Both the position numbers and the translations under genes were made by a program. A model generated the notes under the pieces. The model searched no databases. It worked only from the letters and a program-made list of their open reading frames with translations, and was not told the origin of the DNA. This document shows, one piece after another, positions 759-58,185 of a stretch of DNA of 64,000 nt. The number at the start of each line of letters is the position of its first letter. Position 1 is the first letter of the stretch. This DNA comes from Bryum argenteum (lineage: Eukaryota; Streptophyta; Bryopsida; Bryales; Bryaceae), in contig CM073324.1 in assembly GCA_037043015.1 (NCBI GenBank), positions 22,336,097 through 22,400,096 of the forward strand, in the 5' to 3' direction.

Positions 759-1065
759 TTAATCCCTAGATATCCTTGATGCGAAATTGCCTAAATTCTC
801 CATGCTTATAAAGCCCCATTTGAAACAATGTTTAGAAGATCCAACCGTAGGATCTTAAAGTTCACTTGAGTTTTTAGTCACTTGTAAAATTTAAACCGTT
901 GATTCTTTTCCATTAGTGAGATCGTAATGCTCAAAGCAAGGAGAATCTTATTTGGGCGGGAACCCCAAATAGTGTAATCTGGATCTTGAAAAACTTTAGG
1001 GGGTGGGGGGAGTTCAAGAAATTCAAAATGGTTGTTGGAATAAATTAGAATAGGGTTAGGGTTAA
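759..1065 (-). mobile_element. TTAA-flanked MITE, piggyBac-like family, diverged copy
   Basis: The left end reads TTAATCCCTAGATATCCTTG and the right end GGGTTAGGGTTAA. Read in reverse, the interior (about 825-960) matches the copy at 25979-26246: a stretch like GAAGATCCAACCGTAGGATC, a stretch resembling AAACCGTTGA, and a GAGAT..TAATG..CAAAG block in the same order and spacing. The left end aligns with the right end of that copy (TTAACCGCTAAAGGTCCTTG in complement). It has no coding capacity, so it is a non-autonomous element. The telomere-like GGGTTAGGGTTAA is simply the degenerate inverted repeat. Confidence 0.6.
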
Positions 1066-1154
1066 GAGGAGTGGCCGCCATCCTTAGCTCCCCACCAAGG
1101 TGCCTTCGGACGCCCACGCCGTCCGGGGAATTTTTTTTTTTAAAAAAAATAAAA

Positions 1155-1244
1155 AAAAAATCTAAATTTAGAATCCGGTCGCTCCGTCCGATCGGTCGGC
1201 GGACCGATCGGACGGAGCGACCGGATTCTAAATTTAGATTTTTT
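1155..1244. repeat. Perfect 43-bp palindrome with 4-nt loop
   Basis: Arms 1155-1197 and 1202-1244 are exact reverse complements around the loop GGCG. Each arm has a GC-rich core (CGGTCGCTCCGTCCGATCGG) and an AT-rich base (TCTAAATTTAGA) running into A or T tracts. The transcript of either strand would fold into a very stable hairpin. Perfect conservation of both arms implies recent origin or ongoing correction. It may be a foldback element or an inverted dimer of the neighbouring GC-rich unit. Confidence 0.85.
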
Positions 1245-1272
1245 AATTTTTTTTAATTTATTATTTTTTTCT

Positions 1273-1427
1273 TTGGTCGGGACGACCGCCCGGTCGACCG
1301 CCGACCGATCAGACGGCCTGGCCATCAGCCAATTTTTTTTTTTTTTTTTTTTAAATTTATTTATTATTATTTATTTTTTTTTCTCGGTCGGGTCGACCGC
1401 CGACCGATCAGACGGCCACTGCTCTAC
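1273..1427 (+). repeat. 99-bp direct repeat of GC-rich block plus poly-T tract
   Basis: An identical 26-nt block (starting GTCGACCGCCGACCGATCAG) occurs at 1293-1318 and 1392-1417, exactly 99 bp apart. Each copy is preceded by a long T-rich tract and TCGGTCGG. The same GGTCGG/CCGACC motifs build the palindrome at 1155-1244, so the whole 1120-1560 region seems to derive from one GC-rich unit amplified in both orientations. No coding function is evident. Confidence 0.65.
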
Positions 1428-1470
1428 CGGTCGCCCCGGGTTGGGCCGGTCGGCGGGCCAGTTGCCCGGG

Positions 1471-1557
1471 CCAAAGACCGGTCGCCCCGCCCAAAGACCG
1501 GTCGCCCGGGCCGAAGACCAGTCGCCCGGGCCGAAGATCGGTCGCCCCTTTTACCTT
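1471..1557 (+). repeat. 20-bp GC-rich minisatellite, four units
   Basis: Units start at 1471, 1491, 1511 and 1531, a strict 20-bp period with consensus CCAAAGACCGGTCGCCCGGG. Units 3 and 4 carry CCGAAGA at the start. It lies in a strongly GC-rich patch with AT-rich DNA on both sides. Confidence 0.8.
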
Positions 1558-1640
1558 AGGTAAATAGTCCAAAATCTCTAAGTCACGGACGCTCCCATAA
1601 CCCCCTGCGGACGTCCGGACGTCCGGACGCTGTGACATCC

Positions 1641-2313
1641 CTGATTAGGATATGCAAGGTGTTAAGTTTTTGGTGCTGAAAAAGTTTGGCATTACTTATG
1701 ATATGTGACACATGCTGTAGGCTAAATTGGCGCAATAAGTGATTATCTATGTTGGATAGTTTTTTTTTTTTTTTTAATTTTTTTTTATTTTTTAAATTTT
1801 TCTCTTTGAACCATAAATGATTATTGGTGTCACATTTGTAAGATTTCTGGAATAGAGATTCTATATCTTCTGACATTCCAAAGATTGTTTTGATTGTCAA
1901 ACAATGGCTTTTGCAATTATTTGGATGTCGTTGTTGGAGATGCATAGATGCAATAAAAACACTTGTCCACGCTACCCATGATCTTCCACTTTCAGTATAT
2001 TCATTAGATACACATCCGCATTTAGTAGGGGAAGTTGCATAGTCCCTCTCACCTTTTGCAATGAGTGGCAAACTAGTTTCTAATGTGAATGCTTCTAATA
2101 AAGTCTTATGAATATGACAACAAATGATCTTACAAATAGAAACATTGAAGGTCGAACTACAATGTGAAAGTAAATGTACCTAGGAGTAATTTTGACTACA
2201 TGTCCCATACATTGGATTCCACATTTCAATCCTATATGACTATATTATATCCTATTTGATAACAAGCCTAGAAAGATGCACCAATACATTATTCTTATTA
2301 CATCTAAGTGAAC
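1641..2313. other. Intergenic, no supported gene
   Basis: AT-rich with a T-rich low-complexity run near 1760-1800. A reverse-strand open frame covers part of it but is lysine-rich across the A/T run and matches no family I know, so I do not call it a gene. Confidence 0.4.
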
Positions 2314-3037
2314 TTAACCCTTAAGCGGGCCGAATGTTGATTTTCGACATTCTGGATGACACCACGGATGTTTGAACGCTCCCCGCCTTCTCGTCGTCGC
2401 GATTTTTCATCCATCGATTTTTGCCCTTTGTGGGTAAGTGGGGAATGTTTATTGTGGGCTTTACTGCCCTTCCAAATTTTATTTTCACAATTTACAATGG
2501 CGATTTTAGTGGCAGAATTCTTGGTTTTTTTAGGAGTTTCCTTCGTTTCGGTGTGAAGTTTTGCCATTTGGGCATTGAAATGGGGCAGTTGGGCATGGGG
2601 GCTAATTTGCAAAAGAAATATTAGTGGAAAGAGGGATTTGGGAAGATAAGTTATAATTTGGAAAGAAGTGGGAGGATTAGTGCATAAATGCAACTGTCAT
2701 GGCGGTTGAGCCACCAATTTCAGCCCCCATCACCAATTTGAAGGGCCCAACCTTAGAGTATTGAACACCATGAACTTATTCAAATTCAAACTTCTTGCCA
2801 ACATAATTTCTCCATGCCAATCCTATCCAGCATCAATACTCTAATGGAAATTTGCATCATATGGTAGCATCCATCAATTCACATTCAAAATTCAAACCAC
2901 CACAATCACACCTAAGATATCACATCAATCAATGCCATAATTTTTTAGTTTCAATTTGAATGTACATGAGTTTTCAAACAAACTCCTCCTCAGTTGTGTC
3001 CAACACACGTTCCTCCTATTTCTATCTAACACATATA

Positions 3038-3457
3038 ATGGAGAGTTCAAAAGAGAGGTTGCTTCATGATGCAAGGGAGGAGTTAGTAAGATGGGCTACA
3101 ATTGACAAGGGTTTGGGGGAGCAACAAGTGGGTTTTTTGTTAGAGCTTTTGGATAGAGATGTGTTACTCAATTTGCCATGTTCAAACAAGGTTGACAAAC
3201 GCAATACCTCTGAGGGAATTCGTCACCTGTTCTATCACCATGTTAGCAATATTTTAGGATGGAAGGAGAGGGTTTGTGAGGGAGATCCATTAGGAATTAG
3301 TTCTCTATTATATTCTTTGATTCGTCAAATCTGGCCTACTGAACACCATGCTAACAACGAGGAGCACAACACACCAAGTATCAAGGGAGATGGGGGAAGA
3401 GGAGACAATCAGCAGCTTCCAGGTATGCTTACATGTCACCAAATCTTAGTAGCATAG
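3038..3457 (+). CDS. Hypothetical ORF inside piggyBac-like element
   Basis: The frame is open from 2960; the start at 3038 is preferred because the first 26 codons look like leader sequence. It encodes about 139 residues with an acidic/basic helical N-terminal part (residues 1-50) and a Gly/Asn-rich tail. I recognise no domain. A plausible splice donor (CCAG/GTATGC) lies at 3421-3422, so this could be an upstream exon of the transposase or an accessory protein of the transposon. It is also possible that the frame is fortuitous. Confidence 0.3.
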   Translation: MESSKERLLHDAREELVRWATIDKGLGEQQVGFLLELLDRDVLLNLPCSNKVDKRNTSEGIRHLFYHHVSNILGWKERVCEGDPLGISSLLYSLIRQIWPTEHHANNEEHNTPSIKGDGGRGDNQQLPGMLTCHQILVA

Positions 3458-3489
3458 AATTTCCATGGAAATTGGGTTTCAACGAGCTG

Positions 3490-4190
3490 GGAGGATGGTA
3501 TCCAGGGTCAACAGCGAAGAAGGGCAGTCGTCTGCGAGCTGCTCCCATCGGACAGCAGAGGAAGAGATCTCGCCCAACGGCCGCGAAGTCCACCGACAGT
3601 TCCTCCATCGCACCAGAGCGGCCGCGAAGTCCAGACCAGCTGCGGTCAGCCTGCAAGGAGCCAACAAGCTGTTCCATCGGAGAGAACCCCGGCCGACAGC
3701 GGCCAGCGGAGCGTGGATCCACCGACAGCGCAGCGACCTGCAGCGACTCGGCGGAGGAGAGCGACCCAGCGGCGCGGAGGGGAGCGACCGAGCGAAGCGA
3801 CCCAGCCGAGCGGAGCGACCCCGGCCGACAGCAGCTTGGAGGGGACCCAGCGGCCGGAGATGGGAGGGGCATCGGCGGCGAGCGAACGGAGCCGTTGGGG
3901 ACCCCGGCCGACAGCAGCTTCGCCGAGGATTTCGGCAGCGCTCCCCGACCGCGCGACCTCCGTCTCCACCGACGGCGCAGTTGATCTCCACCGACGGCGC
4001 GGACAGCGCACCCCAACCTGTTCGACCTCCACCGACGGCGCAATTTTACAGCGACGGCCCGGACAGCGCTCCCCAACCTCGGTGAGGATCTCCACCGACG
4101 GCCCAAGAACTCCAAATGGGACGTGGGAGTAACCCGCCCGCAGCAATGAGGGGGGAGGATCGGCTTCGGGGTCCTAGACGCGCGCAATGC
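3490..4190. repeat. GC-rich degenerate repeat block in 5' part of piggyBac-like element
   Basis: Very GC-rich and almost free of stop codons in all six frames, so the long overlapping open frames here are not evidence of genes. Short motifs recur, such as ACCCCGGCCGACAGCAGCTT near 3821 and again near 3901, and relatives with AGCGGCC. A stretch near 3850 (CCAGCGGCCGGAGATGGG) reappears in altered form near 7365 beyond the transposase, so the two GC-rich blocks flanking the transposase share origin. Confidence 0.6.
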
Positions 4191-4606
4191 AGCCGCTCAA
4201 AGATCCAAATCAGGCACCAATCTCATGGACATGCAACGAAGCCATCATGTCATGAATCTGCCACAAGAGATTATCGAGCCTCTAGAAGTTAGAGTACTTT
4301 GCAAAGGCAACGCATAGATCCGGTAAAGTGAGATTGGAGACGAAGAAGAGGAAGGATTGATTCGAGTGGGTTAGGGGAACAACTACTAGCGATTTTTGTG
4401 TGTCCAATGTCGGCAAAGATTGATATATGTGGTGCAAATGAACAATGAAACTAAGCAAGTGCCATTTGGTGAGATTGCTCCCATCTTTGCTCACACCATA
4501 CTGCGAAAACACAGAAGAAGAATGCTTGGGGAACTCAAGAACCAGGGGCTTGATTAAAGCGATTCGAAGATTCGAGATGTGGAGAAGAACGAATTCTTAC
4601 TCCTAA

Positions 4607-6885
4607 ATGATGACCTTGGCGGGGCGGGGAGTCCTGCTCGGCGGGCGACCTGTGCTCCATCGCAGGGAATTTCGGAGACCAACGGTCAGAGGGCACCTAC
4701 CCCGGCCAGGCCAGCCCGGTCATCGGACCAGCCAGCGGCGCGGAGGGCAAAGACCCCGGCCAGGCCGGCCCGGTCATCCGACCAGCCAGCGGCGCGGAGG
4801 GCAGCGACCCCGGCCAGGCCGGCCCGGTCATCCGACCAGCCAGCGGCGCGGAGGGCTACGACCCCGGCCAGGCCAGCCCGGTCATCCGGCCAGCCACCGA
4901 GGCAGTGTTGGGCTACGACCCCGGCCAGCCAGGCAGCCTGCAACGACTCCGGCGAGCCAGCCAGGTCGACGATTTATTTGGATGGTGGAGCGGTGTTGGG
5001 CCCTCCAGCGGGCCAGCAACTGGCGAGCTCCAGAGGGTTCGGCCCTCCACGCACCTCGACGGGGTTGGGGGGGTCAGCCTCCAGCTTCCAGCTCGACGGA
5101 TGCTATTGGAGTGGAAGGTGTGGGGAGAGGGAACCGCCAGCCCGAGCCCATTGTGGGCCACAATCAAGTCTCCCATGCGAGAGAGCCCATTGTCGGGCAC
5201 AGCCCCGTATCACATTCGAGTTTTGATCATACAAGGGTAAGTGGGCCACATGGAAGGGGCAGAGGAAGGGGTGTAGGAAGGGGACTAACTAATTGGGATG
5301 TTGGTCTAAGTTTCAAGGAATGCTTTGAAGACAAATATTGGGGGAAATTTCGATCAACTTACACTCATGATAAAGTTGTTTTCACCGGACCTAGTGAGGA
5401 TCCTCCACGTGTTTTTAGGAAAATCTCTCCCGTGTTAGACTTGTTCCACAAATTCTTCACTAGGAAGACTTTGAGGAAAATAATGAGAGAATCTAACCGG
5501 TATGCCGCTTCTATTGACCCGACCACGGAATGACTAGGGGGCCAAAAGATTGGTGGAGTTTGACCGTGCCGGAGTTGGAGGCATGGTTGGGCATTAGTAT
5601 ACTAATGGGGTTAAAAATTTTACCTAACCGTAGATGCTATTGGAAAAGTAGCGAGAAATTTTTCTATTGTCATACTATTGCTAACACTATGAGCATGAAG
5701 AGGTATGAGGCTATAACGAAGTGTTTACATATTCATGATGATTCCATGGCCCCCATGGATAGAAATGACCCTAACTTTGAGAAATTAGTGAAGTTGAGGT
5801 GGCTAATTGAGGAGGTGAGGCACCAATGTGTGTCAAACTGGAATCTTGGTCAATACGTAACCGTTGATGAGCTAATGGTGAGATACAAGGGAATCTACGG
5901 CCATGGCATGAAGCAATACATGCCTAACAAGCCGGTAAAATTTGGATTCAAGATTTGGGCGGCCGCAGATTCGAAATCCAAGTACCTTTACAACTTCCAA
6001 GTCTACACAGGGGCGGATTTGAAGAAAAATCTTCGAACGGCGAAACCGGGGGAGGCAAAAACGGGGTACGAAGTGGTGATGGGATTGATGGACGGATTGC
6101 ATGGGCGGGGCCACGTTGTCGTCACCGACAACTTCTTCACTTCACCGAAACTCTTCGTCGATTTGCACTCCTTGGGCACATACGCCACGGGCACCGTGCG
6201 TTCCAACCGGATTGGTTTGCCGAGCGACTTGGTGGACAAGCGGAGATGGGTGAAGCAACCCCAAGGGAGCTCCGATTGGCACATGCATTGCACCGGTACG
6301 TTATGTTTTCTTGTTTGGGTAGATAAAAAACCGGTGCTTTTATTGTCAACCCATGCGGAGCCGTTGTCACCGGATCCGGAGGTGCCTCTCACGGTGCCCC
6401 CGTTATACTCGTGGGAGGACGGAGCACATACCCACCTCTCCTATCCACTTGGAGTACACCCGCATGATGCGGGGTGTGGATGTGAGTGACCAACTCCGGG
6501 AGTCTACACGGCCTTATCCAAGACCCACAAATGGTGGCATAGGATATTCATGTTTTTGGTAGATTTATCAATTACGAATGCATGGATCATTCACAAGCGG
6601 GAGAGTTTGGATTTGGGGCTTGGTGCTATGAACCATTTAGACTTTGTCACGGCATTGGCATTCTCTCTCATGGAGAATTGGCGGCGGGACCGGATGGGCG
6701 TGGTCTCTCAATGCACTTATACCCCGGGCACTCATGGGCTTGAGAAGGTTCCCCGAGCTAGACACCAATGTGCCACGTGCAAAGACAAAAAAAAACTTAC
6801 AAATTATGTTTGCAAGGATTGTGGTGGTGCATGGTATCACATGGGGGATTGTTTCAAGAAGTCACACTTTGTACTCCGAAGGTAG
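4607..6885 (+). pseudogene. piggyBac-type transposase (DDE_Tnp_1_7), frameshifted
   Basis: The product would be a DDE/D transposase that cuts and pastes at TTAA. The frame from 4607 gives an Arg/Gly/Pro-rich repeat region, a GRGRGRGVGRG stretch, then the typical N-terminal block (VVFTGPSEDPPRVF, FHKFF, IMRESNRYA) to a stop at 5533. The reading moves to the next frame at about 5530 (DWWSLTVPELEAWLGISILM). The catalytic region follows: first Asp in TVDELMVRYKG (about 5860), second Asp in VVTDNFF (about 6120), then ATGTVRSNRIGLP. After about 6420 it shifts again to give MRGVDVSDQLR with the third Asp, then shifts back near 6505 (KTHKWWHRIFMFL). The C-terminus has a Cys/His zinc-binding cluster (CATC, CKDC, H, C, H; 6768-6870). 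Three frame changes argue for an inactive copy. All catalytic Asp residues are still encoded. Confidence 0.88.
4700..4925 (+). repeat. 54-bp minisatellite, about four units
   Basis: The marker CCCCGGCCAGG starts at 4700, 4754, 4808 and 4862, exactly 54 bp apart, with a diverged fifth start at 4919. The period is 18 codons, so the array stays open in frame. In the frame that continues into the transposase N-terminus it codes for an Arg/Gly/Pro-rich 18-residue repeat. Confidence 0.85.
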
Positions 6886-7019
6886 TGGGTTATTCATCTA
6901 AATGTAACATCCCATTTCTTCCATCTTCTTTTGTTTATATTTGGCTTGTCTTATTTTTAATCTTTTTAGCTATGATTTTAGAATATCAATGAACTATACC
7001 AATGTGTTTTTTTTATCGA

Positions 7020-7450
7020 TTGAAATACTCCAGGGACTCCTGCTTTGCAGGTCCAGGGACTCCCATGCGAGAGAGCACCAGGGATTCCAGCGTGGCGAGG
7101 CATGGGGGGGGGGATTTAGTAGCGACATTTGTTTTGCCAGCATGATGGCGGGGCATCGGGTCAGCGGCAAGGTGGGGGGGGGGGTGATCACAAGCTCAGC
7201 CCATTCCACTGACAGGCGGACGACCAGCAGCGGGCTTTGTGGCAGCTGCCGGCCCGACCCCTTCCACAACGGCAGGCTTCTTGCCAGCTGCCGGCCCGAC
7301 CCGAGCGGAGCGCCCCATCACGGAGCATCGACGGCTCATAAAGCTCCTCCTCTTGTGTAATCCAGCGGCCGGGGATGGGCGTGGCGGGGGCATCAGATCA
7401 GCCCTTTTGGGGTTTGGTCCAAACCGTTTCCAAACCTGACAGCCCTATTA
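7020..7450. other. GC-rich 3' block of piggyBac-like element
   Basis: Follows the transposase stop after an AT-rich 3' stretch. It holds G-runs (7087-7097 and around 7173-7182), a repeated CAGCTGCCGGCCCGACCC (two copies, about 7245 and 7281) and segments shared with the 5' block, such as TCCCATGCGAGAGAGC (near 5170 and 7060). No coding frame is credible. Confidence 0.5.
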
Positions 7451-8056
7451 GATGGTGGCAGACACCTTTATCCGGAAGGACAGATTTTATAGTCTCTTTT
7501 AGCTATCCTCCCATTATTTTTGTATTTTGTGTGTTCTTCTTTTCAATCTATCTTTATAAAAGGCTGCCCCCTCTTACACCAACTCTTGTCCACGGAGGAC
7601 AAAAGCGTGGGTGGGCAGCCTTGAAACACTATTGAGAAATAGCTCTTTCCTCAACCCACATGCGTTTCAAATAGTACTATGTGCAAATGGAAGCTCACAA
7701 TTATGTTTTTTTTTTTGGAATAGCTCCTTTGCTTCATGCCGGATATTATTGTACTTGACCAAATTTGATTTTGAGGGAATTCTTGATACGACTTTTCACT
7801 CCAAAGTCTAAACTTGGTGACTGCCCCACTATTTTCAGCCCCCCATTTTTGCCTTCAATCATGTGGATGAAGTACCCCCCCCCCAACTCCAAATGGCATG
7901 AAACTTGGCATTTCAACTATTTACAAAAGGGAGAAGAAGATCCGTCGGTTAGAATTTAAGTTTACTGCCTCTCTTTTCTTTTAACGACCTTGACATTTTT
8001 TCACAAATTGGACCCCTCTCCAACTGCCCCGATGGATTGAAACGTTTAGGGGTTAA

Positions 8057-10038
8057 AACTTTAAGACGTGACTACAAGACTAATTAGAACAATAAGGTCT
8101 GAAGATCTTGTTTTATAGAAAAAAATATAAAAACATATTAGATATATTAGTAGAGTCCATAACATCCATATACATGAAGTACATTCTTGTTTGTTTTCAC
8201 CATCAAGATCCTAGAGACCACTGGTTTGATTGGGGCGTTGAAGAGATTATTGGAAGCTCGTATTTTTGGAGGAATGTAAATACTTATTAGAATGGCATTA
8301 TGATTTTTTGGGTGTTGAGTTTTTGGTGCTTTAAACTTTATGAAGGTTCTTGTGGTATAGGATCTATAGTAGTGTAGAGTTGGAGCAACAAATAGTTATT
8401 TTTATTTGATAGTGATTAATTGAATTTGGAAAATTTGCAATAGCTTAGCAAAATAGCCAATGTCATGTTATATGCACTCTTTCATTGTAATAATAGAGTT
8501 AGAAGTGGAAAAGTGTTGGCTACTATTATAGTTAGAAACATAGATTTAGTCTCTTTAGCTCTGAAAATAGTATTCTAAAATCTATAGTGTTAATCTCGCC
8601 CTAAAAGAATTGATTAGAGCTTCTCTTATATAGGTATGAGTAAATTGTGTTTTAGTATTGTGTGTTTGGTGATGTGTATATGTTGAAATCTCAATTGTTT
8701 GGCCAGTGTAGGCTGTCTAAAATAGAAGATACTATATCTTCAGGCAATTCAAAGATATTGGGGGCCTACACAATAACTTCTGTAATCATTCAAGGTGGTT
8801 CTTCTTGGTTGTTGAGGGATGCACACTCCATTTGAAATAATTGCTAGAGCTGCCCTACAAATTCTACTACGATTGCCTTCAACGTGCAAAACATCCACAT
8901 TGATACATGACCGCCAGATTCTCTCATTTACTTTTCAATTTGTAAGAATGACGTTGCACTCAAGAGAAAAATGATTAACTTGCAAGAAGGAGGGCAAGGA
9001 ACAAAATCTTCCTCCTTAATATTGTTGTTTAGGCCTCCTTTACGAGCAAGAACTAAGGCGTGCCAACATCTGAGCCTTTATCCATATGTAAAAGCATTTT
9101 TTCCTTGCAAGTAGGTTTGACCTCAAGTAAAGGTATTCAATGAATTGAATCATAGAAGATGGAATCATGCCACAATGCTTATATGATATTTGCATTGAAT
9201 TACACTTTTGGAGTTAAAAGTATAACCAATCGAGATATTTTTTCATAGAAAACCTATTTTGTCATAAGAACATGATAATTTTCATTTAATTATATAGAGA
9301 TAAATCATAAGTAGTCATTGGTTAAAATTTAATGCATGAGAGCACTGTTTGCTAACAAGGCTACTATAAAGAGCCCTTATTTTCAAATTGACCTTTCAAT
9401 TGTTACCCACATATTAAAGTTTAATAGCCATATATTAGACCAAAATTTGATCATATGGGAAACTTCTCAATTTGAGCAATTGATTACATGCAATACTTTT
9501 ATTTTTATTTTTAAATGAAAAAAAACACACATACATACAGGCTTCATACTTCAATGCTTCATTTGATAGCAATATATCAAAGTATTCACATAATAACATT
9601 GAAATACAATGACTAGTTCTTATTCTAAGGAGATTTGAATTAAGACTTGAGCACACACAAGAAAATGCACAAACAAACTATTAATGAATTTGGATCACAT
9701 TAGAGCATCCAAAAGTAATCATGAGATTTAATATGTAATCTGCCAAAATTAAGAATGTTAACTCTTGTATACGTGACTCAAACAATTTTTGAACATGGTA
9801 AACAAATATGTGATATCTTCATCTAAAAGCAAAAGAATCCATGTGAAGAAGTTTCAATTAGACAAGGGACGCTTCAAATGCGTATTTGCAATAAAAATAT
9901 CATTACTTCGTGTCGGAGATGCGACTGTTGGTAAGAAATAGTTAGGTCTATTGTAGGGTGTCTAGAATTTGTGTTTCAAGCCAACCTAAATATATGGCAC
10001 GAATAAATTTAAATATGTCTAAAGAGGGTAGGACAATA
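8057..10038. other. AT-rich intergenic DNA
   Basis: I see no gene, RNA or paired inverted repeat here. Confidence 0.4.
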
Positions 10039-10895: not shown

Positions 10896-10899
10896 AAGA

Positions 10900-12334: not shown

Positions 12335-12544
12335 ACGAGATTCAACTTTGAATGTTACGATCTCACATATGGTAAGTAATTTGAAACTTAAATTTGGTAC
12401 ACACATACATGGACAAGTTAGGTACAAGATCTCACAATTAAATATCATGATCACATCAAAAGTTGAAAATTTTCATCTTGCATTGAAAAAGGGTGGTATT
12501 GAGGAATTTTGGCAGTTTTGGAGGATTTCAACTTTTGGGGTTAA
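12335..12544 (+). mobile_element. Partial TTAA-MITE (right half)
   Basis: Ends in CAACTTTTGGGGTTAA at 12544. The interior (CAACTTTGAATGTTACGATC, then TTGGTACACACATACATG, GTTAGGTACAAGATCTCAC, GAAAAAGGGTGGT) matches the right halves of the copies at 23443-24189 and 44686-45194. I could not find a left TTAA end, so it is truncated or its left part has diverged beyond recognition. Confidence 0.55.
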
Positions 12545-13489: not shown

Positions 13490-13770
13490 TAGTCTAAGAT
13501 AGAGTAGGTCTCAGAATGGAGCTCTAGTAATCTTCACTTATACGGACATGATAGCTACCCCTGCATTAGTACTATGTACTCAATGCCAAAATCATGGGGT
13601 AATACTTTAGGGCACCGTGTAAGGAACACCTATATTTCCAACTTCATATATTCATAGCTCATCATAGAAGAGTCCAAAAATGATGATTCCACTTGCTCAT
13701 CTTTGAACTGATTTTCCCATGTACAAAATTTGTTTGCATTGGTAATATCCCTACTTGGAATAAGTCATTT
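13490..13770 (+). repeat. Dispersed ~300-bp repeat, copy 1
   Basis: Shares, in the same order, the blocks AATCTTCACT..GACATGATAGC, ATGTACTCAATG, TAGGGCACC, GGAACACCTATATT, TTCATAGCTCAT, GAGTCCAAAAATGATGATTC and TTTCCCATG with the copies at 24330-24610, 33105-33954, 40850-41010 and 44380-44640. It is non-coding. Its ends and class are not clear. Confidence 0.6.
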
Positions 13771-14211: not shown

Positions 14212-14477
14212 TTAACCCCTAACTTTCCTTAAAACCCGAAACGGGTTTTGGAGGTTCCCGCAGGAGAAAAACTCAGCCAACTTTGACCATTATAATCTCA
14301 CAAAAGGGGAAGAATGAACGGTTCAAATTTGGTACGTGAGAAGAAGGTCAAGTGAACTTTGAGATCTTACGGTTGAATCTTTTGGATAATGCTTAGATTG
14401 AGAGTTTTTGTTAAATTTAAAAGAAGGTCAAATTTTGTGACTTACACCCTTTTGCAAGAAGGAAATTTAGGGGTTAA
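14212..14477 (+). mobile_element. TTAA-MITE, 266 bp
   Basis: The left end is TTAACCCCTAACTTTCC and the complement of the right end is TTAACCCCTAAATTTCC. The interior carries CAACTTTGACCATTATAATC, AACGGTTCAAATTTGGTACG and AGATCTTACGGTTGAATCTT, all shared with the copy at 25979-26246. TTAA is at both ends. Non-autonomous. An A-rich low-complexity run (14082-14133) lies just upstream. Confidence 0.85.
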
Positions 14478-24329: not shown

Positions 24330-24610
24330 AGTGGTCTAAAATGGAACACGTCCCACAATGAAGCTATTATAATCTTCACTCACAGGTACATGATAGCTTT
24401 TTCATAGTACCATGTATACTCATTGCAAGGATTACAAAGTATCACTCTAGGGCATCATTTTAGGAACACCTATATTCCCAATTTCAGAAATTCATAACTC
24501 ATTGTAAAAGATTACAAAAATGACGATTCCACTTGCACTATCTTTCTACTGATTATTTCCGTGCACAAAAATTGCTTACACTAGGAACATCCCAAAAATT
24601 GAGCCATTAT
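24330..24610 (+). repeat. Dispersed ~300-bp repeat, copy 2
   Basis: Same block order as the copy at 13490: AATCTTCACTCACAGGTACA, TGATAGCT, ATGTATACTCATTGC, TAGGGCATCATTTTAGGAAC, ACCTATATTCCCAA, TTCATAACTCATTG, AAAAATGACGATTCC. Non-coding. It follows the MITE at 23443 by about 140 bp. Confidence 0.6.
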
Positions 24611-25978: not shown

Positions 25979-26246
25979 TTAACCCCTAAAGGTCCAAGAA
26001 AGCGGAAAACGCTTTTTGGAATTTCCGCGGGGAGAAAATTCAGCCAACTTTGACCATTATAATCTCAAAATTGGAGAAAAATTAACGGTTCAAATTTGAC
26101 ATTCGAGAAAAGGGTCAAGCTAACTTCAAGATCCTACGGTTGGATCTTCTAATCAATGCTTAGATTGAGTTTCTTTGCACCTGAAGTAGAAGAAGATTCT
26201 TTTTGATAATTTGAACAATTTTGTATCAAGGACCTTTAGCGGTTAA
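25979..26246 (+). mobile_element. TTAA-MITE, 268 bp
   Basis: The left end is TTAACCCCTAAAGGTCC and the complement of the right end is TTAACCGCTAAAGGTCC: 16 of 17 identical, with TTAA at both ends. The interior contains CAACTTTGACCATTATAATC, AACGGTTCAAATTTGACATT and AAGATCCTACGGTTGGATCT. It is the best-preserved short copy of the subfamily that also includes 759-1065 and 14212-14477. Confidence 0.88.
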
Positions 26247-33104: not shown

Positions 33105-33954
33105 GCAATTTTTAGCATGGGAGAACTATAGGAAGTTCCCGATGCAAGCAATTTTTATGCATGGGGAAAATTGGTAGAAAGCTACAACAAGTAGAATCAT
33201 CATTTTGGTCTCTTCTACAATGAGTTATGAATTTTTGAAGATGAAACTATAGGTGTTCCTAAAATGATGCCCTATAGCGACACCCTAAAATGTTTGCAGT
33301 GAGTACATGTCATTGTTGTATGGAGAAGCTATTATGTACCTCTGAGTGAAGATTAGGAGAGAGTGCTCAAAAATGGAGAAGTATTAATGATGGTGCGCTA
33401 GGCTTCTTCACCTAAAGGTACATAATCGCTTGCATGTCAACAATACCATGTACTTGTTGGATTTGGGTTTCCAAGAACCCATGAGTTCATGGTAGTTTAA
33501 GCGTCATACAATTTGTGTAGTGGGAATACCATAAGACGTTTGTCTTAGTCGTATAAAACGTAGCTTGGAGGGTGATGAAATTACATTTGATTGAAACATT
33601 TCATTCAGTATCTCCTTCTATAGTTGGGTGGCAAGTTACCTTGAACAATATAATGTATTATTATGGTTACACAATTCCAACAGTACTTACCAGAGACATT
33701 ATAGGGTGTCAAATTAGGGCACCATTTAGAAATACCCATAGATCCATCTTCAAAATTTCTTAGCAAAATTGATTGTAGAAGAGTCCAAAAATGATGACTC
33801 CACTTTGACCATCTCTCCATTTATTTTCCCTATGCATAAAATTTGCTTTCACCAGTACCTTCACTGCGGATTGGAAAATCTGAAATTTGAGTACTCTCCC
33901 TTACTAAATCTTCACTGTGAGACCTCTTTCATTTTGGACCACTCAAGTATAAAA
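33105..33954. repeat. Inverted pair of the dispersed ~300-bp repeat
   Basis: 33105-33356 carries the repeat in reverse (CTACAATGAGTTATGAATTT, AGGTGTTCCTAAAATGATGC, AGCTATTATGTACCTCTGAG). 33405-33954 carries it forward (GGTACATAATCGCTTG, ACCATGTACTTG, AGGGCACCATTTAGAAATAC, AGTCCAAAAATGATGACTCC). The two are head to head with about 50 bp between them. The forward copy is expanded by extra sequence between about 33440 and 33690. Confidence 0.6.
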
Positions 33955-41221: not shown

Positions 41222-41813
41222 TTAACCCTTAATCGTCACCGGTGACCAAACTGGTCACCAAGGTCATTGTTTTTGCTTTTGGGGTCCGACACAGTGGTAG
41301 GGTGCAAATCTTGTCCAAAGGCACCCCTATTCTTTTGTTTTTCTGAATCCAATGCTCCTTCCCGATCGCCTTCTTGAGGTTTGTGTGATTCGCGCGCAAT
41401 TGTAGGGGCCATGTGATCCCATGGTCAATGCTCTTTGACTTGGCCTTCCTTTTTATTTTTTTGACGATTTTTTTTCAAAATAATAAAAAATCTTGATCTT
41501 TATCCCTATACCATGCTCTATGATGCCAATTTTCTGAAAAAATGACCCAAGGAGGGAAAAACCAAAAAAGCAATATGATATTTCTCACTCATGATCAACA
41601 ACCAAAACATTTTTTTCTCAACGGTGCCATTTTTTGAGATTTTACCCGATGTGATCAATCTTTTTTGCATTGGTCACATCACCAAGTTACCTTGATAACC
41701 ACCGTTTCCGATTCTCAAAATTGTTTTACCTTAGTGCAGAAATAAGGCCAAAAGACAATGAGGTTGCATTTCTCTCCAATTTGTGGAAAACAAGGATGTC
41801 AATTAAGGGTTAA
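41222..41813. mobile_element. TTAA-flanked element, 592 bp
   Basis: The left end is TTAACCCTTAATCGTC and the complement of the right end is TTAACCCTTAATTGAC, with TTAA at both ends. CCCTTAA resembles the left end of the large piggyBac-like element at 2314 more than the CCCCTAAA type. The interior includes GGTGACCAAACTGGTCACC, a small palindrome. It has no coding capacity and differs from the short MITE subfamily inside. Confidence 0.8.
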
Positions 41814-44379: not shown

Positions 44380-44640
44380 AATGTGGGAGGATAGACAAAG
44401 TGAATTCATAACTTTTGGACTCTTTTACAATTTGCTATGAATTTCTGAAGGTGTTTCTAATATGGTGCTCTAATTTGACACACTATAATGTTTGGGATGA
44501 GTACATGGTATTGTTGAAGTGTGAAGCTATTATGTACCTCTGGCTTGAAAAGCCTAGCACTTCATTACTGATACTTCATTTTGTAGCACTCTCTCTTACA
44601 ACATTATTCAACATTGTCTCTTATAGTAAATTGAGGTGAG
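44380..44640 (-). repeat. Dispersed ~300-bp repeat, reverse copy
   Basis: Contains, in reverse, the family blocks: TTTTGGACTCTTTTACAATT, GCTATGAATTTCTGAAGGTG, GAGTACATGGTATTGTTG, GAAGCTATTATGTACCTCTG. Matches 33105-33356 in the same orientation. Confidence 0.6.
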
Positions 44641-44685: not shown

Positions 44686-45194
44686 TTAACCCCAAAATTC
44701 CTCACTTACTTACTTTAGGAGATATTCACAGTCAAAGTTTGAAAACACGATTTGAAATTTGCCCAAGATTGCCGGTACATGCATATTTATTCTCAAAATC
44801 TGCCCAAAATTAATTAAAATGCAGAATCTACAAAAATTCACCAAAAATTGAGATTTTATTTACCTAAAAGCATGATCTTACTAGGAACAAGAATTTGAGG
44901 ACCTTCATGTCAAATTTCCTTTTAAAAATGGTTTTCTTGGCCCCTGAAAACTTCACTTTGGCATTTTACAACATGGAAAAAACTTTTTTTCGAATTTTGA
45001 GCGTTATTATCTCACAAATGATGAGGAATTTAAACCTAAGATTTAGTACGCATGTTCATGTATAAGTTAGGTACTAGATTATAATGTTACATACTTCAAA
45101 GCTTGTCAAAATTCAAAAATTTGCATCTTGCACCAAAAGGGGGCAATTTTGAGGATTTTTGGTTGTTCACAGGTTGCTCACCTTTAGGAGTTAA
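44686..45194 (+). mobile_element. TTAA-MITE, 509 bp
   Basis: The left end is TTAACCCCAAAATTCC and the complement of the right end is TTAACTCCTAAAGGTG, with TTAA at both ends. The interior is parallel to 23443-24189 (GATATTCACAGTCAAAGTTT, AATTTGCCCAAGATTG, TTATTATCTCACAAATGATG, TAAGTTAGGTACTAGAT, CACCAAAAGGGGGCAATTTT). Confidence 0.75.
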
Positions 45195-48057: not shown

Positions 48058-48060
48058 TAA

Positions 48061-48469: not shown

Positions 48470-48472
48470 TAA

Positions 48473-50600: not shown

Positions 50601-52251
50601 TGACCGAGTGTTCAGCGGTAGCCGGAAAAAACATAAAAAAGCCCATCCTTCTCAATTATTTGACATTTAATTGTGTTACATTTGATTTCATGTGTGTGGT
50701 TTGATAAGAACAATTTTTCTGAAAACTGGTGGCTTTAGTCATTCAAAACGTATTGTGTGATTTGCATTAATTTTAGTTCTGTGCTTGGGTTGTGCATGTT
50801 GTAGTGATTTTCAGCTGGTCTTGTATGCTTTTGTATGTTGGTTTGCGGATTGACGGGCATTACAGAAGGGCTGCTCGATTTCTCTTAGAAAAACCTAGTT
50901 ATTTAAATCTTGCTTTGCATTTGAAATTGCTTCTAGATCTTTTTCTAGGATTAAATGGGTGTTGAAATTGCAAGGTTGGTGTTAAGTATTGCAAATCTAG
51001 TTTATGTATGCTAGGTTTTGTGTTGTAATGTGTTATATTGATAAAGTTTGGAGATTTTTATTATGATTTGGCCCATTTGATCCCTATTATTGAATTTTAG
51101 ACTTTAGTGGTCAATTGGAGGCCATCTGAGCCTCCCAACGCCACATTTGGTGAATTTTGCGTTTAAATTTACTGTCGGGCCTACTTGGTTGATTGAGATT
51201 TAAGTCTATTAGCAAAACCGAGTAATTCATTGCTTAGAGGGTCATATAATTGCCACACCTCACGGACCTTTGTTGCAATTTCCCGGAAACCTGAATTTGT
51301 GCTTACACCAAGCAATGACATAAACATCCTCGAATAATCCCATGGGCTGCAACATCACAGGTCAAAATATTCTAGAGCTGCCTAATTCTACCTATTTCTT
51401 CAAACCCTCATGATAGCTGCAAAAAAATTTAATTGAAACTATGTACTAAAAATAATTATAGTCACTATGAATATGTTATCGTATTCTTTGATTGGTATTG
51501 TACACTTCAAGTGTGAAGAAAATGCGGTTAAAATCGATGAGCAATTCAATCGATAAGAAGAGAACCATAGAGATGGGTTGATGGAGAGTGAAGACACCTA
51601 TCTATTGCTTTGAAGCAATGGACTTCAAAAATGCTAAGAAAATGAGACCATAAGATGCATTCATATACATTAACATTCACCATCACACAACCCTCAGCAC
51701 TCCATAAAATGTAATAAAGATCACATCAAACAATCGAGGGAGAAAAATACATCTGGATCCAACTGCAGCTGAACTTTTGGCCACCAAAGTGGCCGGATCT
51801 ATCTCCTCCTTGTTTGTCTTAAAGTAGGCAAGGAGTCCACAAAAAACCAACTTAAAAACGCAACATAATTCAAAAGCACGCTCTCTGATTTCTTTTATAA
51901 CTCAAGCTATGCAGCCTCAAAGTTAGGTGTCTAGCTGCCCTCCACCACGAATTTGCTTCCACTAAATCGAATGTAATTCCTCCGTCTAAGCTCCAACAAG
52001 CGTAAGCCTATGATTTTTGGATAGCTGACTCTTAGACGCTCATCTCTTTTAAACAACTTGCGCAAATTCGTATCGAGGTGATTGCTACGCCTCTCAAAAG
52101 TCGGCAGATCCAGATCTTGATTGAGAAGTCCACCTCTCTTCCTTCTCTTCCTATGTACACACACTCATCACACCACCAAGCATTCCACACCCTCTTGTAA
52201 CATGATTTTTTCCATCATGTAATTCAAATCATGTCACTTCCCACACAAACT
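50601..52251. other. Intergenic DNA
   Basis: Mixed AT-rich sequence with no credible gene. A reverse open frame of 77 codons near 51931-52164 is Arg/Leu-rich but has no supporting feature. Confidence 0.35.
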
Positions 52252-52520
52252 TTAACCCCTAAAGGCCCATGATGTTTTGGGAGCTTGAAATCCCAACACT
52301 GACCACTATGTACTAATGCGGGTACGTCCAATATTTTTGGAAATTTTTGATAACTTCAACCGTATGATCTTGAAGTAGACTACCATAGGTAGTAGTGTGA
52401 AAATTTTCAACCGTTGGATCATCACTGGATGTGAGATCATAACATTTGAAGTTGACTGTAAATTTTTTTTGGCCTTGACCGTAAAAGCCGAATCGGCGGC
52501 CGTGGGCCTTTAGGGGTTAA
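52252..52520. mobile_element. TTAA-MITE, 269 bp, perfect 18-bp ends
   Basis: The left end TTAACCCCTAAAGGCCCA is exactly repeated in complement at the right end. The interior has CAACCGTTGGATCATCACTG and ACAACTTTGAAG-like motifs (ACATTTGAAGTTGACTG) reminiscent of, but more diverged than, the other short copies. It is the clearest pair of ends in the family. Confidence 0.9.
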
Positions 52521-54274
52521 TCATGTTCCTCACTTTTTTCACACAACACACAAGAGAGAGAACAAGAGGTCTCTCACCTTAGCAAAAGGAGAGACAAGAA
52601 AAAGAAAATGAGAGCATAAAAAAAACATGAGGGGAGAGAGGAAGCATTAGAGAGGAATTTTCATGTCTTACCTTCCTCCTTACCTTTTGTATTTTTACAT
52701 TTACCTATTTCCTTTTACTCTAAAACTATTTTACGTCTCATATTCTTCAATTCTAACAATTTAGTCATTCTTTCTGACATACAGATATGCAATTGTCACC
52801 AAGTTGTCATTTTCAATGTTTTTCATAATTAATATAATAACTTCCTACCCTATTTCTATAAATTCCAATCAAATGCGCTTAGTCCATAAGAAATATACCA
52901 ACTACTATAATCAAATGCATTTTGCATCTAGATATGGAGTGCCAATATAGACGGCTAATATGTGAGCTATTTAGATGGCTTTTAAAACCTCACGCGAAAA
53001 TATCTATACTCGTTCGATATATTCATTATAAGCTCGCTTGAAACACAATTTTTTAGAAAAAAAAATAGTACAATTTAGAGGATATAACAGACACTAAAAA
53101 GATCTCACAATGATGAAGGAGATATGTATCGAGACGAGCCTAGTGAAGGAATCCAAAGTTGATCAAGTGAGAAAATAATAGCGATGTCTGGATATGTTAT
53201 TATAGATGAAGACCAAATTTTAAGTACAATTTTTAAGACTAATGTGATTGTAAGGCTTTGAAAATAAAATTTCCATCTTTGAAGTAGAGAGGTCACACAA
53301 GTGTAATTACAATGAAGCTCACCTAATTTCTTCAACTTCTCTGTTGTGTGCAATCTCAACTTTTCAAGCCACCAAAATTTGACGTCCCGTGCTGATTGTT
53401 CAAAAGCTCACAACTTCTTCCTCTCTACAAGAAGTCAGGTACCTGATTCTTCCAAGGTACAAAATTGAGCTCGATCTAGTCTTGCATGTTCTAGCATTGA
53501 TCATCTTGAACTCGACCATGAAAATTCTGTAATTTCAACTTTCAAGCATGTATGAATTCTCGAAGAGATTTACCGAAAATCTCAAGCTTCGTTCTTTGCA
53601 TAAAGAATGTGTGAGCACTCCAATTAATCTTGTGTACGTTGATCTTTTTTTGAAAATAAGTGCAATCCTTGTGTACTGCAAAAAAAGAGGATGCTAGCAT
53701 AGTATATGCCAAGCCTTGGACAACGAACAAAAGACATGAATTCTATGAATATCCTAATACTTTGAGCCCCGCTGAAAACCTTTGTGAGTGCAAATTACCC
53801 TGCATGGATGGTACTTGTTGAAGAGGATCCAGTAGTAGTGCATACCTCCCGCCGTGACCTCCCGCATGCTTGCAATAAGCTTGCGCGCATGAGCCAAAGA
53901 GCTCCGTTTGAAAGCGTTTGTGCGGCTCCGACATCTCCGTGTTTGGTCAAAACCTAGGCAGAAGGAAGAGTGTGCTCTTCGCGTGCGACTTCCGTTTGTT
54001 TACCTCTTCCCCACTTTTCTCAATCAATCACGTGCAAGATACAATAGTAGACAAAAATTAATGCTCACATCCACACCCTTCCTTACGAACATGAATCTAA
54101 ACCGTCTCTGAAAGGGCTTCTACCAAGTGAGTGCAGAAGGACTCTTTCAAGAACTCCTCCAGGGACTCAAGTGACTTTAGAGACTATCGAAAGAGGTTTA
54201 GAAGACTCACAATTGTGATTAGGATTTATTCTATTGTGAGCAATTTTAGTCTTTTTGTTTTTTTTTTTTTTGCA
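52521..54274. other. Intergenic DNA, left flank of Harbinger remnant
   Basis: No gene recognised. The left end of the PIF/Harbinger element should fall in the right part of this stretch, but I found no inverted-repeat partner for it. Confidence 0.35.
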
Positions 54275-55146
54275 ATGGGTGACTTAAGAGATAGCCTATT
54301 GGCTTTTATGCTTGAGGATAGCCATATGGAGGTTGAGGAGACTCAAAATGGGGTTTCAAAGGCAAGCTATGAGAGAAAGTAGAGTGATAGAGTTCTCCAT
54401 TTTTTGTTCAAAATTGTTGAGGAAAAGTATTGGGAGTATGATAAAAAGGCTTTCAAGGCGGAGAATTGGGATTACTTTGTCGACGTCATCAATACACAAT
54501 TTCCAAAGGAGACTCTACGTACCGGCAAACTAACAAGGGAGAAATGGGGGAAGATAAGGAGTTTATATCATGAAGAGAAGGAGAAGCAATCGGCGACCGG
54601 AGCAGCACCTTTAACATGGACTCCATGGTTTGCCCTTTTTGATGGTATGTATTCTGACACTGCTAAGTCAATGGCATTCCAAATGGTAATTATCAAGGGC
54701 GCCTTTCTTTGTGCAAGGAGAATGAGAATAATGTGCATGTTTTGAGTGATGAGGATGTGATTCTTCAAACTCCACTGCTCCCTCTTTCTTCCTCTATGAC
54801 TTCCAATCTCACTCCCCGCTTTAAGACTGCTAGGGCTCCTAGATGTGAGAGGCAAGTGAACCGCAACGCCAACAAGAGAAAGCGCAAGATTTTGGAAGGT
54901 GATAATGATATAGCCATTGCCATTTCTTCGATTGGCTCTAGTCTTCTAGGGTTGGAGAAGATTGACAAAGAAGCTGATTGACAACGAGGAGGGGCGCAAA
55001 TTAACTATGAAAGAGAATTTGCAGATCGCGACCCTATTTGTAAATATTCTGAAGAAGAAGGATCTTTCTACTTCTTGATTCTAGTTGAGATGTTTGGGTT
55101 TGATTTTACCAAGGCTTGCAATTTTTGCAAATCTTCAAGGATGTAG
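54275..55146 (+). pseudogene. PIF/Harbinger ORF1, SANT/Myb-like DNA-binding protein, broken
   Basis: This second protein of PIF/Harbinger elements binds DNA and brings the transposase to the ends. From ATG 54275 the frame reads 35 codons to an in-frame TAG at 54380, continues in the same frame with a SANT-like trihelix (WDYFVDVINTQF, GKLTREKWGKIRSLYHEEK, WTPWFALFDGMYS), and shifts frame near 54700 (LCKENENNVHVLSDEDVILQ). A basic stretch (NANKRKRK) and a helical tail (SSIGSSLLGLEKIDKEAD) follow before a stop at 54981. One stop plus one frameshift make it a pseudogene. It converges on the transposase at 56283-57130. Confidence 0.75.
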
Positions 55147-56282
55147 TTACTACCTTTTCATTTGTTTTAAAGTTTATTGGTTTTATAGTGTATTTTCTAC
55201 ATCAATAGAAGTTTGTCTATTTTGTGTTGAATTTAAATGATACCTATAACTCTATAATGACATGAAATTCCTAAAACCATGTAACTAAGTAACTGATTAA
55301 ATCTGTGTATCTCATTTTGAAATTAATTTCTCATATTTCAAAGTAGAAGGGGCTTTTTGAGGTAAATAGAAAAGGGTTAAGGAAAAGGGGTTTTTATATT
55401 AAAAAGTACTTAATTAGTATCCTATAAATATTATGGAAGCATCAAAATGGCTTTAGAAAGATCCAAATCACTTTTCACAAATTACTTTAGCTTACCTCTA
55501 CCGACCAGAACTTTGAATAATTGGTAGAAAATATAAAGAAGGTGAGAAAATTAATAATAAATAATAAATACATCAACTAATTATGACACTGTAAAAATGA
55601 TTGTGGTGTTTAAAAATTTTTGAAAACGACGCATCTATATGCTATGAGTTCCTTCCAAAAGTTTTTACTCATTGGAACTTTGAATAGTAGACAAAAAACA
55701 AATAAAATGTGGGTGAAAAAGATTATTGTACTTGAACTAGCTAATAAAAACCTTATAAAAATGATGGGATCATAAAATAAATCATTGAAGTAACGCATCT
55801 ACATGTCATCATTTATGTGGACCCACCAGAAATTTGAATAAAGAGGTGAATAAAAAAGTTATGGAAAGATGAGGATTTTATATCTAATATATTTCTCAAA
55901 TTACTCAAGATTAATTTGATTTATGAAAGGAAGGTGTGTATGCAAATGTATTAAAAATTAACATGATGGAGGTGGTTTTTAGGTTTGTAATAGCCAATAA
56001 GGACCCTAAAAATATGTTTGATTCATCAAATAATTTATAAGAAGAATCGGGCTATTTTTCTTGAATTACTGTAAAGTGGCTTAAGTGACTAGAATTTCGA
56101 ATAATAGAGAAAATTTTGATAAAATAAAAGAAGAAAATATTTTTAAATCTTAAAATAGCTAATAAACACATTATAAAAATGATAGAATCATAAAATAATA
56201 CACAACTAAGATTACATCACTCATTTGGATTATTATAAACTCATTGAGTAAAAAAGTGCATTTTTCAATGCTTCTTTATCCC
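55147..56282. other. AT-rich spacer between Harbinger ORFs
   Basis: Contains several decayed copies of a pattern around AAAAATGAT(T/G)..CATAAAATAA..ACGCATCTA, seen near 55595-55630, 55755-55800 and 56175-56200. No gene. Confidence 0.4.
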
Positions 56283-57130
56283 TCATTGCAGGCCCACCTT
56301 GTCTAAAGACCGGGAGACGGACGTTTCAAATCCAACAAGGGGATCTACTGTATCCACACCCCTAGCTACAAAAGGCTCTGCCTTGTGCCACATCTCACAG
56401 TAGTTGTGCAACCAACAACAAGCCACTGTAATTCTAGCTGCTTTATCTAATCTAAAATTAAAATGCCTCAAAATTTTCCACCTAGTTTTCAAACTGCCAA
56501 AAGCGGTTTCTATTATAACTCGTCCAAAATTCATTGAGAAATTAAATCTCTTTTTGTCAACATCATTAGGAACATTGAATTTTTTCATAAGAAATGTTCT
56601 AATGGGATAAGCAAAATCGCCGACTAGGAAAGGTGTGTAATTCACACCACCAACATCCTAAATAAGAGTTTGCAATTTTTGACACTTGCTCAAATCTTTG
56701 TACAAACTAGATACTTTGAATTGACCACCATCATGCACACCATCTGGTTAAGTAGCACAAACATTCCAAAATATACGTTTGGAGTCACATACCGCTTGCA
56801 AAAGTACGGAGTGGAACTTCTTCATGTTGTAAAAGTTTTTAGACGCCGGTGTGACAGCTTGACTAGGCCGCTCTTCCAAGAGAATGTATATACCATCTAT
56901 CGCCTCACACATCCTGGGAATCCCTGTAAGAGCCTCAAAATCATGGATAATGGTTTGCAAACGCTCTCTTGTAGGGATAAAAATGCACTGGAAAAACAAT
57001 TTGGTCTCACTAGAGAGAACCTCACAAACTATGTCCACATATTTCCTTACTACTGATGCTCCTACCTTAAAACGGTCCGCCGTATGTACCGGACCAAACC
57101 CACGACTCCATGAGCTAATCTACAAAGAAC
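56283..57130 (-). pseudogene. PIF/Harbinger transposase (HARBI1-type, DDE_Tnp_4), nonsense mutations
   Basis: One continuous reverse frame from about 57105 to 56283 broken by in-frame stops at 56750-56748 (TAA) and 56660-56658 (TAG). Upstream it reads GPVHTADRFKVGASVVRKYV, then IPRMCEAIDGIYI with the first Asp, PDGVHDGGQFKVSSLY after the first stop, LVGDFAYPIRTFLMKKFN with the second Asp and RVIIETAFGSLKTRWKIL with the catalytic Glu. All three acidic residues survive, so decay is through nonsense changes and not loss of the core. Together with the SANT pseudogene it marks one PIF/Harbinger element whose ends I could not find. Confidence 0.9.
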
Positions 57131-57254
57131 ACAAGCAACTATCTTCTTAATCTCTAATTGCGGCCTAAGTTAATGAACACAATTACTTTTCAAGAATGGA
57201 TTTAACATTTCCAACAAGTTGTTAAAAGCGGGAAAACCCATTCTATAAAATTGC

Positions 57255-58185
57255 TTAACCCCTAAACTACCAAGGCCTCCGATTAGGAGATTTGCGATTT
57301 CGGGCAGCCTAAGTTAAGATGTTAAAAGTAATATTTTTGCCTAAGATTTTTACTGGATGTTCCTTACACTACAAGGTGTATGTGGGAAAATTTGCAAAGT
57401 CAAACTCCACCTATGGAGTTCTTAAACGCACATTTTATTTTTCAACCTGGAGCGGAAGGAAAAAACTTTTTATTTCTACCTTTTTTTAAATTTTTTTTTT
57501 GGAAATCTTTTCTTGATTGATTTTGTACTTAGGTTTCCAAGTGACCCAAGTTGAAACTTTTACCAATCCTACAAGGGCACCCTTCAAAAATTACAAGAGC
57601 TAGATTCAAAGTTTTTTTTGATATTTCAATTTTTTCTCTCAATATTTGCCAAAGTTTGAGATTTTGGAATTTTTTGAATTTCTTTCTTCTTGAAATTCAA
57701 AAAATCAAGAAGGTACATACTCACCGTTCATTTTTCCCCTAAACCATATACAATAAACGTGGTGCGTGTTTTACCAAATCCTTGATTTCTACCTTCTTCT
57801 AGTAAATAAATTGCATGAAGGTCCAAAAAGCAAAATGAGTGTCTAAAACTTTGCATGGGCATGCCCAACTTAGTTATATACATGGAAAAAAATATGAGCT
57901 AGATGTTTAAGGTATAAGCATCACGTTTTCCTTTGCACAAAGTTGACTATGTTTGCTGAAAAAAAAATTGCACCAACTTTGAATGTTACGATCTTACAAA
58001 TGGCTACGATCCAACGGTTGAAATTTCAGCCGCTACCTCTAATGGTAGTTCTCTTCAAGACCATACGGTTGAAAGTTTCTAAAAAGTGTAAAAAATATTC
58101 TCACACTCCAAAGTTTACAAGGTGGTATGGAATTGCAATTTTGGAGTTTGGAGCTCACAAAACACCATGGTAGTTTAGGGGTTAA
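57255..58185. mobile_element. TTAA-flanked element, 931 bp, perfect 18-bp ends
   Basis: The left end TTAACCCCTAAACTACCA is exactly matched in complement at the right end, with TTAA at both sides. It is three times longer than the short MITEs but shares subterminal wording (TTTGAATGTTACGATCTTAC, GATCCAACGGTTGAAATTTC). The middle is A/T-rich with no coding frame of note. It sits about 125 bp from the Harbinger transposase pseudogene, as an independent insertion. Confidence 0.88.

Follow-up and report, generated by a model that had tools for sequence, protein, structure and literature searches.

The window analysed here, a 64-kb stretch of DNA (C4:22336097-22400096) from a plant-like genome of 258.8 Mb in 25 contigs, contains a set of TTAA-flanked miniature inverted-repeat transposable elements (MITEs) together with a copy of a large piggyBac transposon. 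We propose, with high confidence, that the MITEs are non-autonomous, internally deleted forms of native piggyBac-superfamily transposons, and that a transposase of the type encoded by the coding element L071 would move them in trans, through ends shared between them, at TTAA sites. An earlier note on this DNA had described at least nine such elements, next to the large one, as a single dense family. Their identification as TTAA MITEs of the piggyBac kind stands, but they belong to several families of different age rather than to one.

The shared ends far exceed chance expectation, confirming that the elements noted earlier are real. The 12-base end TTAACCCCTAAA occurs 14,192 times genome-wide, compared with 172 times for the reversed control. 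In the window, with TTAA required beside the end and ten second-order Markov nulls for comparison, we found 7 exact ends (0 across the ten nulls) and 13 ends with at most one mismatch (null mean 0.2). Inward-facing pairs 100-1500 bp apart numbered five at up to one mismatch per end (14212, 25979, 44686, 52252 and 57255, each named by its first window position; null 0.0) and eight at up to two mismatches (null 0.3). With the coordinates of the earlier note, the nine elements and the 5,743-bp large element occupy 15.4% of the window. Twenty 10-kb stretches picked across C1-C10 (200 kb in total) contained 5 exact and 13 one-mismatch ends; the window is above average in end density, since it has about 109 exact ends per Mb as against 25 in this sample and 55 genome-wide. 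A second density estimate (5,218 of 200,000 bp; reversed control 0) is not relied on, because four library elements came from the same sample and account for 1,816 bp of self-matches. The 100 places listed for TTAACCCCTAAA, all within the first 8.4 Mb of C1, include 14 neighbouring inward pairs less than 1.5 kb apart, as against 5 outward and 0 parallel pairs. These 14 pairs fall into discrete size classes of 264-268, 586, 930-936, 978-982 and 1311-1315 bp. C1 itself, which at 44.1 Mb is the longest of the contigs seen, has few of these elements: its first 8.39 Mb contain 100 exact 12-mers, or 11.9 per Mb compared with 54.8 genome-wide. It may be a sex chromosome or an otherwise unusual chromosome.

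The coding elements found with the same ends as the MITEs are piggyBac elements; a match of the ends to another superfamily with coding copies, which the earlier note had named as grounds for rejecting its reading, did not turn up in the material examined. A PF13843 profile gave 116 scored transposase matches among 776 candidates, all above the Pfam cut-off, and none in 14 control genomes; C1 holds 5 of the 116. Four transposase copies of kinds other than that in the window were examined (L071, L072, L073 and L074), for two of which, L072 and L074, the ends are not settled. L071 (C2:2423466-2429174, 5,709 bp) carries at both ends TTAACCCCTAAAGGCCCA, the same 18 bases that form the perfect terminal inverted repeat (TIR) of the 269-bp window MITE 52252..52520. 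Between these 52252-identical ends L071 has an intact frame of 909 amino acids with a DDE_Tnp_1_7 domain (E 1.3e-75). The frame matches the structures PDB 6x67/6x68, which we take to be T. ni piggyBac, and 9c0f, bat piggyBat (E 4.3e-25 and 2.6e-27, respectively), and three Asp positions align with the piggyBat and 6x67 transposases; the three are presumably catalytic. In sequence it is distant from them, and a long N-terminal portion precedes the region of the match. The DDE_Tnp_1_7 domain and the predicted DDD residues identify the coding copies as piggyBac transposons. Besides L071, 25 further copies were scored, all at 100% (rounded), 24 of them spanning positions 1-5709 and one 2-5709.

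The 18-mer TTAACCCCTAAAGGCCCA has 533 exact occurrences genome-wide and 0 in the control. The 100 places listed cover C1 and part of C2. They include 26 inward pairs with a span of 268-273 bp (269 bp in 23 of them), 14 with a span of 5,700-5,716 bp and one with a span of 11,156 bp; 18 ends are unpaired. Since the pairs fall at about 269 bp and about 5.7 kb, one terminal sequence bounds both a MITE and a coding element. The 18-mer occurs 9 times on the whole of C1 and 91 times in the first 22.6 Mb of C2. At C2:1907221-1918618 two of the 5.7-kb spacings lie head to tail with an overlap of exactly 4 bases, as though the TTAA beside one element had been the target site of the other.

To relate the MITE interiors to coding elements, the best two-piece alignment of each MITE to the element ends was compared with five shuffles of the MITE, along with reversed and complemented controls. 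Four MITEs aligned to both ends of L071 with scores far above shuffles, controls and other lineages: 52252 (score 200, shuffles -17 to 6; 34 bp left and 245 bp right, 68.7%), 25979 (156, -16 to 8; 50 and 226 bp, 65.3%), 14212 (151, -15 to 21; 46 and 233 bp, 63.8%) and 57255 (469, -95 to -67; 310 and 594 bp, 62.3%), the right-hand ~400 bp of the last being 74% identical to the right end of L071. In 52252, the pieces look like an internal-deletion form of an L071-type element in reversed orientation. Three others aligned mainly to the right end, namely 44686 (109, -27 to -1; 12 bp of left end), 759 (94, -13 to 7; 6 bp) and 12335 (86, -24 to 3; 4 bp). Judged by these alignments, most of the window MITEs, though not all, have in L071 their closest coding relative among those found. 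In the first four both ends trace to such a coding element and in the next three mainly the right one, with a weak case for 23443 and none for 41222.

Intact MITEs, with 15-18 of 18 terminal bases matched, account for five of the nine: 14212, 25979, 41222, 52252 and 57255. In the families of 14212, 41222, 52252 and 57255, many copies have one size. The MITEs are short and TIR-bounded and lack a long reading frame: no open reading frame of at least 150 amino acids is listed inside any of the nine, only four of which exceed 450 bp and could hold one. The boundaries of 14212, 41222, 52252 and 57255 are set by many further genomic copies, and that of 25979 by one relative, L002. The statement that the outer 18 bp are identical in 52252..52520 and 57255..58185 proved exact (18/18); the TIR of the latter, a 931-bp MITE, is TTAACCCCTAAACTACCA. 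The remaining intact members are 14212..14477, a 266-bp MITE of the 268-bp family, whose relatives host nested insertions with TTAA duplication; 25979..26246, a 268-bp MITE that is 93% identical to L002 end to end and 73-77% identical to 14212; and 41222..41813, a 592-bp MITE of a second young family with TTAACCCTTAA ends. A published definition gives piggyBac TIRs as 12-19 bp with a CC[C/T]T terminal motif (PMC2872659); CCCT fits the TTAACCCTTAA ends, and the 18-bp perfect TIRs of L071 and 52252 read CCCCTAAA, one C more than this motif.

The other four listed elements are less complete. By their shared interiors, 12335, 23443 and 44686 are decayed relatives of one older group: 44686..45194 (10 of 18 terminal bases matched) shares its interior with 12335, 23443, L007, L015 and L028; 23443..24189 (11 of 18) apparently has one extra base at its right end; and 12335..12544 is a fragment in which only the right end (12544) is present. 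The ninth, 759..1065, is a partial, reversed relative of the 25979 type with TTAA at both coordinates. Its right end is doubtful, because a 42-base stretch near it (~1016-1057) is identical to DNA adjoining the right end of the piggyBac copy L048, and as read here it is not a clean element. Of the MITEs, 14212, 25979 and 57255 are assigned to the forward strand and the others to neither. A subterminal motif similar to GATCYTACGGTTG lies ~100-130 bp from the right end in 25979, 14212, 759, L038, L039 and L057 and could be a site for the transposase or a host factor; an AACGGTTGA-like motif recurs in element interiors.

Copy comparisons point to recent amplification of some of these families. 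In each comparison the best ~40 first-look candidates, query included, were scored; the candidate totals given here are not copy numbers. In the 52252 family (1,292 candidates), the youngest, 39 of 39 other copies scored were 100% identical (rounded). Of five 269-bp copies that were read, the one on C7 agrees with the window copy at every base, and the other four depart from it at base 114 only; the flanks of all five and of the window copy differ right up to the TTAA. The 41222 family (319 candidates) is nearly as young, with 39 other copies at 95-100%; all 39 alignments begin no more than 8 bp from the left boundary, and 38 of them finish 0-19 bp beyond the right one. The 57255 family (4,730 candidates) gave 39 other copies that are 93-97% identical and of which none covers fewer than 924 of the 931 bases; nine 930-type copies and the window copy have unrelated flanks right up to the TTAA. 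For the 14212 family (2,519 candidates), 39 other copies scored 92-93%. With the genome-wide number of ends, these at least 39 other scored copies in each of four families bear out the earlier suggestion of a major MITE class of this genome. The near-identity of the 269-bp copies amid unrelated flanks, together with the open L071 frame, suggests that these elements moved too recently for more than a few mutations to have followed, and the genome probably harbours a very recently active native piggyBac/MITE system.

Some details of these copies stand apart. L069 (C8:17740001-17740380) is a 268-type MITE with ~34 bp of its left end in tandem, giving three TTAA-bounded ends in a row. We gave up the idea that bases 13-15 of the ends differ from one copy to the next while agreeing between the two ends of any one copy; they look like subfamily marks, since nine of ten 930-type copies share them and L015 alone differs. 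Also dropped was a reading in which the 930-type interior belongs to the piggyBac copy L040 or to the copy at C7:9532427, as L057 shows the C7 copy to be inserted within a 930-type MITE.

The TTAA target duplication expected of piggyBac elements is seen at nested sites and at some empty ones. A piggyBac copy on C2 (L054/L055) lies inside a 268-type MITE as CTCTCC-TTAA-[element]-TTAA-AACCCG, where the uninterrupted L019 reads CTCTCC-TTAA-AACCCG, and in L067 and L068 one 268-type MITE lies within another, both junctions reading TTAA. For a 930-type copy, gap-free empty paralogous sites (L064 and L065) read TTAA. The empty-site search used the joined flanks of 19 insertions, with the best 40 of 620 candidates scored and 9 of the 40 sites read; the sites are paralogues, not excisions. 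All 40 scored rows cross a junction (28 for L015, 10 for 57255, one for 2314 and one for L032). A target duplication longer than TTAA, one of the findings that the earlier note had held to refute its reading, was not present in the nested or empty sites read, although several empty paralogues read TTGA or TTAG.

Several observations nevertheless weigh against our interpretation. Matches were obtained for only 4 of the 19 joined junctions among the best 40 of the 620 candidates. At the four empty-site relatives of 57255 that were read, the target is TTGA, which departs from TTAA by one base, and there are no gaps. The empty paralogue of 2314 has TTGA too, and small indels start a few bases beyond it. 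In L070 the target is TTAG, with indels close by, and in L063 the junction contains a small gap. The alignment of 23443 to L071 is weak (score 25, shuffles -55 to -22), and that of 41222 is not convincing (2, -63 to -20). For 41222, which scarcely aligns to L071, a coding partner was not found. The interiors of the four best-aligned MITEs are only 62-69% identical to L071, which makes L071 a relative of the parent, not the demonstrated parent. Finally, against L037, which belongs to the lineage of the window's large element, 25979 scores 53 and 52252 scores 47; because both exceed their shuffles, part of the alignment signal is common to both lineages.

This last point bears on the mobiliser. 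The earlier note had looked to the piggyBac-like transposase of the window's large element, and although the class was right, that element is not the closest partner found. Located at 2314..8056 on the forward strand, it is a 5,743-bp piggyBac transposon of another lineage than L071, with ends fixed by two other copies spanning 1-5743 at 94-96% and differing from each other (TTAACCCTTAAGCGGGCC and TTAACCCCTAAACGTTTC). We consider it unlikely that the transposase lineage of 2314-8056 moved the MITEs, even though its right end carries the exact TTAACCCCTAAA, as do 16 of 17 right ends checked in the lineage, and AAGATCCTACGGTTGGAT occurs ~101-120 bp from the right end both in 25979 and in the lineage copies L038 and L039. 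Left ends seen in this lineage begin TTAACCCTTAAG and so differ from those of the MITEs, whereas the ends of 52252 remain identical to L071 beyond base 12. The scores to 2314-8056, 37 for 52252, 44 for 25979 and 27 for 14212, are some three to five times below those to L071, and that for 57255 is negative (-30). The frame of the window copy is moreover interrupted: the open stretch at 5518..6489 (forward strand) contains DDE_Tnp_1_7 at 5518-6486 (E 3e-57; profile positions 30-280 of 349) and breaks off short of the domain's end, which makes this copy look broken. This fragment is 43% identical to the L071 transposase over 298 aligned positions.

An origin in another superfamily is considerably less likely, on an analysis that made no Kolobok-directed search. 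TTAA by itself names no superfamily, Kolobok being another that duplicates it, and such an element could account for 41222, the MITE without a partner. The coding element that has the 18-bp ends of 52252 is, however, piggyBac, and three further MITEs (25979, 14212 and 57255) align to it as well; the piggyBac copy L073, with TTAACCCTTAAACGCCC at both ends, begins like 41222 for 11 bases. L073 has one other copy, on C5, at 97% end to end, and L021 has TTAACCCTTAAACGCCC at one end. We regard as at least equally improbable that the families are old and inactive, with recent segmental duplication or gene conversion, and not transposition, behind their high identity. Greater age would fit the identities of scored copies in the 268 family (92-93%) and the 930 family (93-97%), and the L040 pair on C8, which matches into the flanks on both sides, looks like a segmental duplication (for this reason its right end is not established, and L040 was left out of the right-end count). 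The unrelated flanks of the 269-bp and 930-type copies described above speak against this explanation, as does the one base shared by the window and C7 269-bp copies and absent from the four others read, which is what copying to a new place would be expected to give. That the pairs are chance TTAA pairs or telomere-like CCCTAAA runs is scarcely credible and, for the five intact elements, refuted: the end motif does resemble the plant telomere repeat, and 759 and 23443 are weak pairs, but nulls for exact ends are near zero, the C1 pairs come in discrete sizes, and the multi-copy elements have consistent boundaries.

Returning to mobilisation by an L071-type transposase, we propose the following hypothetical sequence, in which (i) a transposase from intact L071-lineage elements or close kin would recognise the shared ends, comprising TTAACCCCTAAA and a family-specific extension and including the end segments retained by the small MITEs, ~35-50 bp on the left and ~225-245 bp on the right; (ii) acting in trans, it would cut the MITE out at TTAA and insert it at another TTAA, which would be duplicated; (iii) separate internal deletions at different times would have given rise to the families; and (iv) the 52252 and 41222 families would have amplified very recently. 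Hairpin chemistry and seamless repair are established for T. ni piggyBac, from which this model borrows them.

The kind of system is thus already known; what stands out is its host group, its scale and its youth. Animals are known to carry piggyBac MITEs. Pokey of Daphnia pulex likewise combines autonomous piggyBac lineages with TTAA MITEs (90 to 110 mPok copies, partly in 28S genes), mPok keeping the TIR plus 160 bp at the 5' end and 350 bp at the 3' end (PMC3849761). The present system differs in its plant-like host and in its 319 to 4,730 first-look candidates per family searched, which are not copy numbers. The coral (Acropora) CMITEs and AmiPB1 share with it TTAA MITEs, TIRs identical to those of a coding piggyBac, weak interior similarity, and nested and tandem forms (PMC2872659); host and TIR sequence are different, and here 26 scored coding copies are near-identical. 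For plants, published sources place PiggyBac among seven MITE superfamilies of angiosperms (PMC10004981), list 1,230 PiggyBac entries in a C-fern repeat table (PMC6890710) and describe piggyBac as a plant tool (PMC10794571). Our literature search, from which subscription papers were mostly missing, found no title or abstract on a young piggyBac/MITE pair in a plant, which is weak evidence of newness.

A functional parallel may lie in the Ping/mPing pair of rice, which belongs to PIF/Harbinger and consists of a young coding element and a short, near-invariant MITE with matching ends. The L071/52252 pair would work in the same way, with another superfamily and another target, if it is active. 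We think it somewhat more probable than otherwise that a native piggyBac system is active today in this land plant, with at least 26 near-identical full-length coding copies and with 269-bp and 592-bp MITEs still spreading, Ping/mPing-like but footprint-free at TTAA. Such a pair, if active, would make it possible to examine directly how a new burst of MITEs is tolerated or silenced in a plant, and could yield a plant-adapted, seamless TTAA vector.

The rest of the window contains plant-type genes. Pfam domains from 20 window frames include GRAS, CER1-like, B-box, LRR, zinc-binding dehydrogenase and DDE domains; Rfam at the gathering threshold gave 0 matches within the window. Within 2314-8056, a tandem array with a GC-rich unit of ~54 bp lies upstream of the transposase domain (4689-4899). 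Another dispersed repeat occurs at 13577-13696, 24417-24549, 33203-33344 and 44383-44542, its copies being 76-81% alike.

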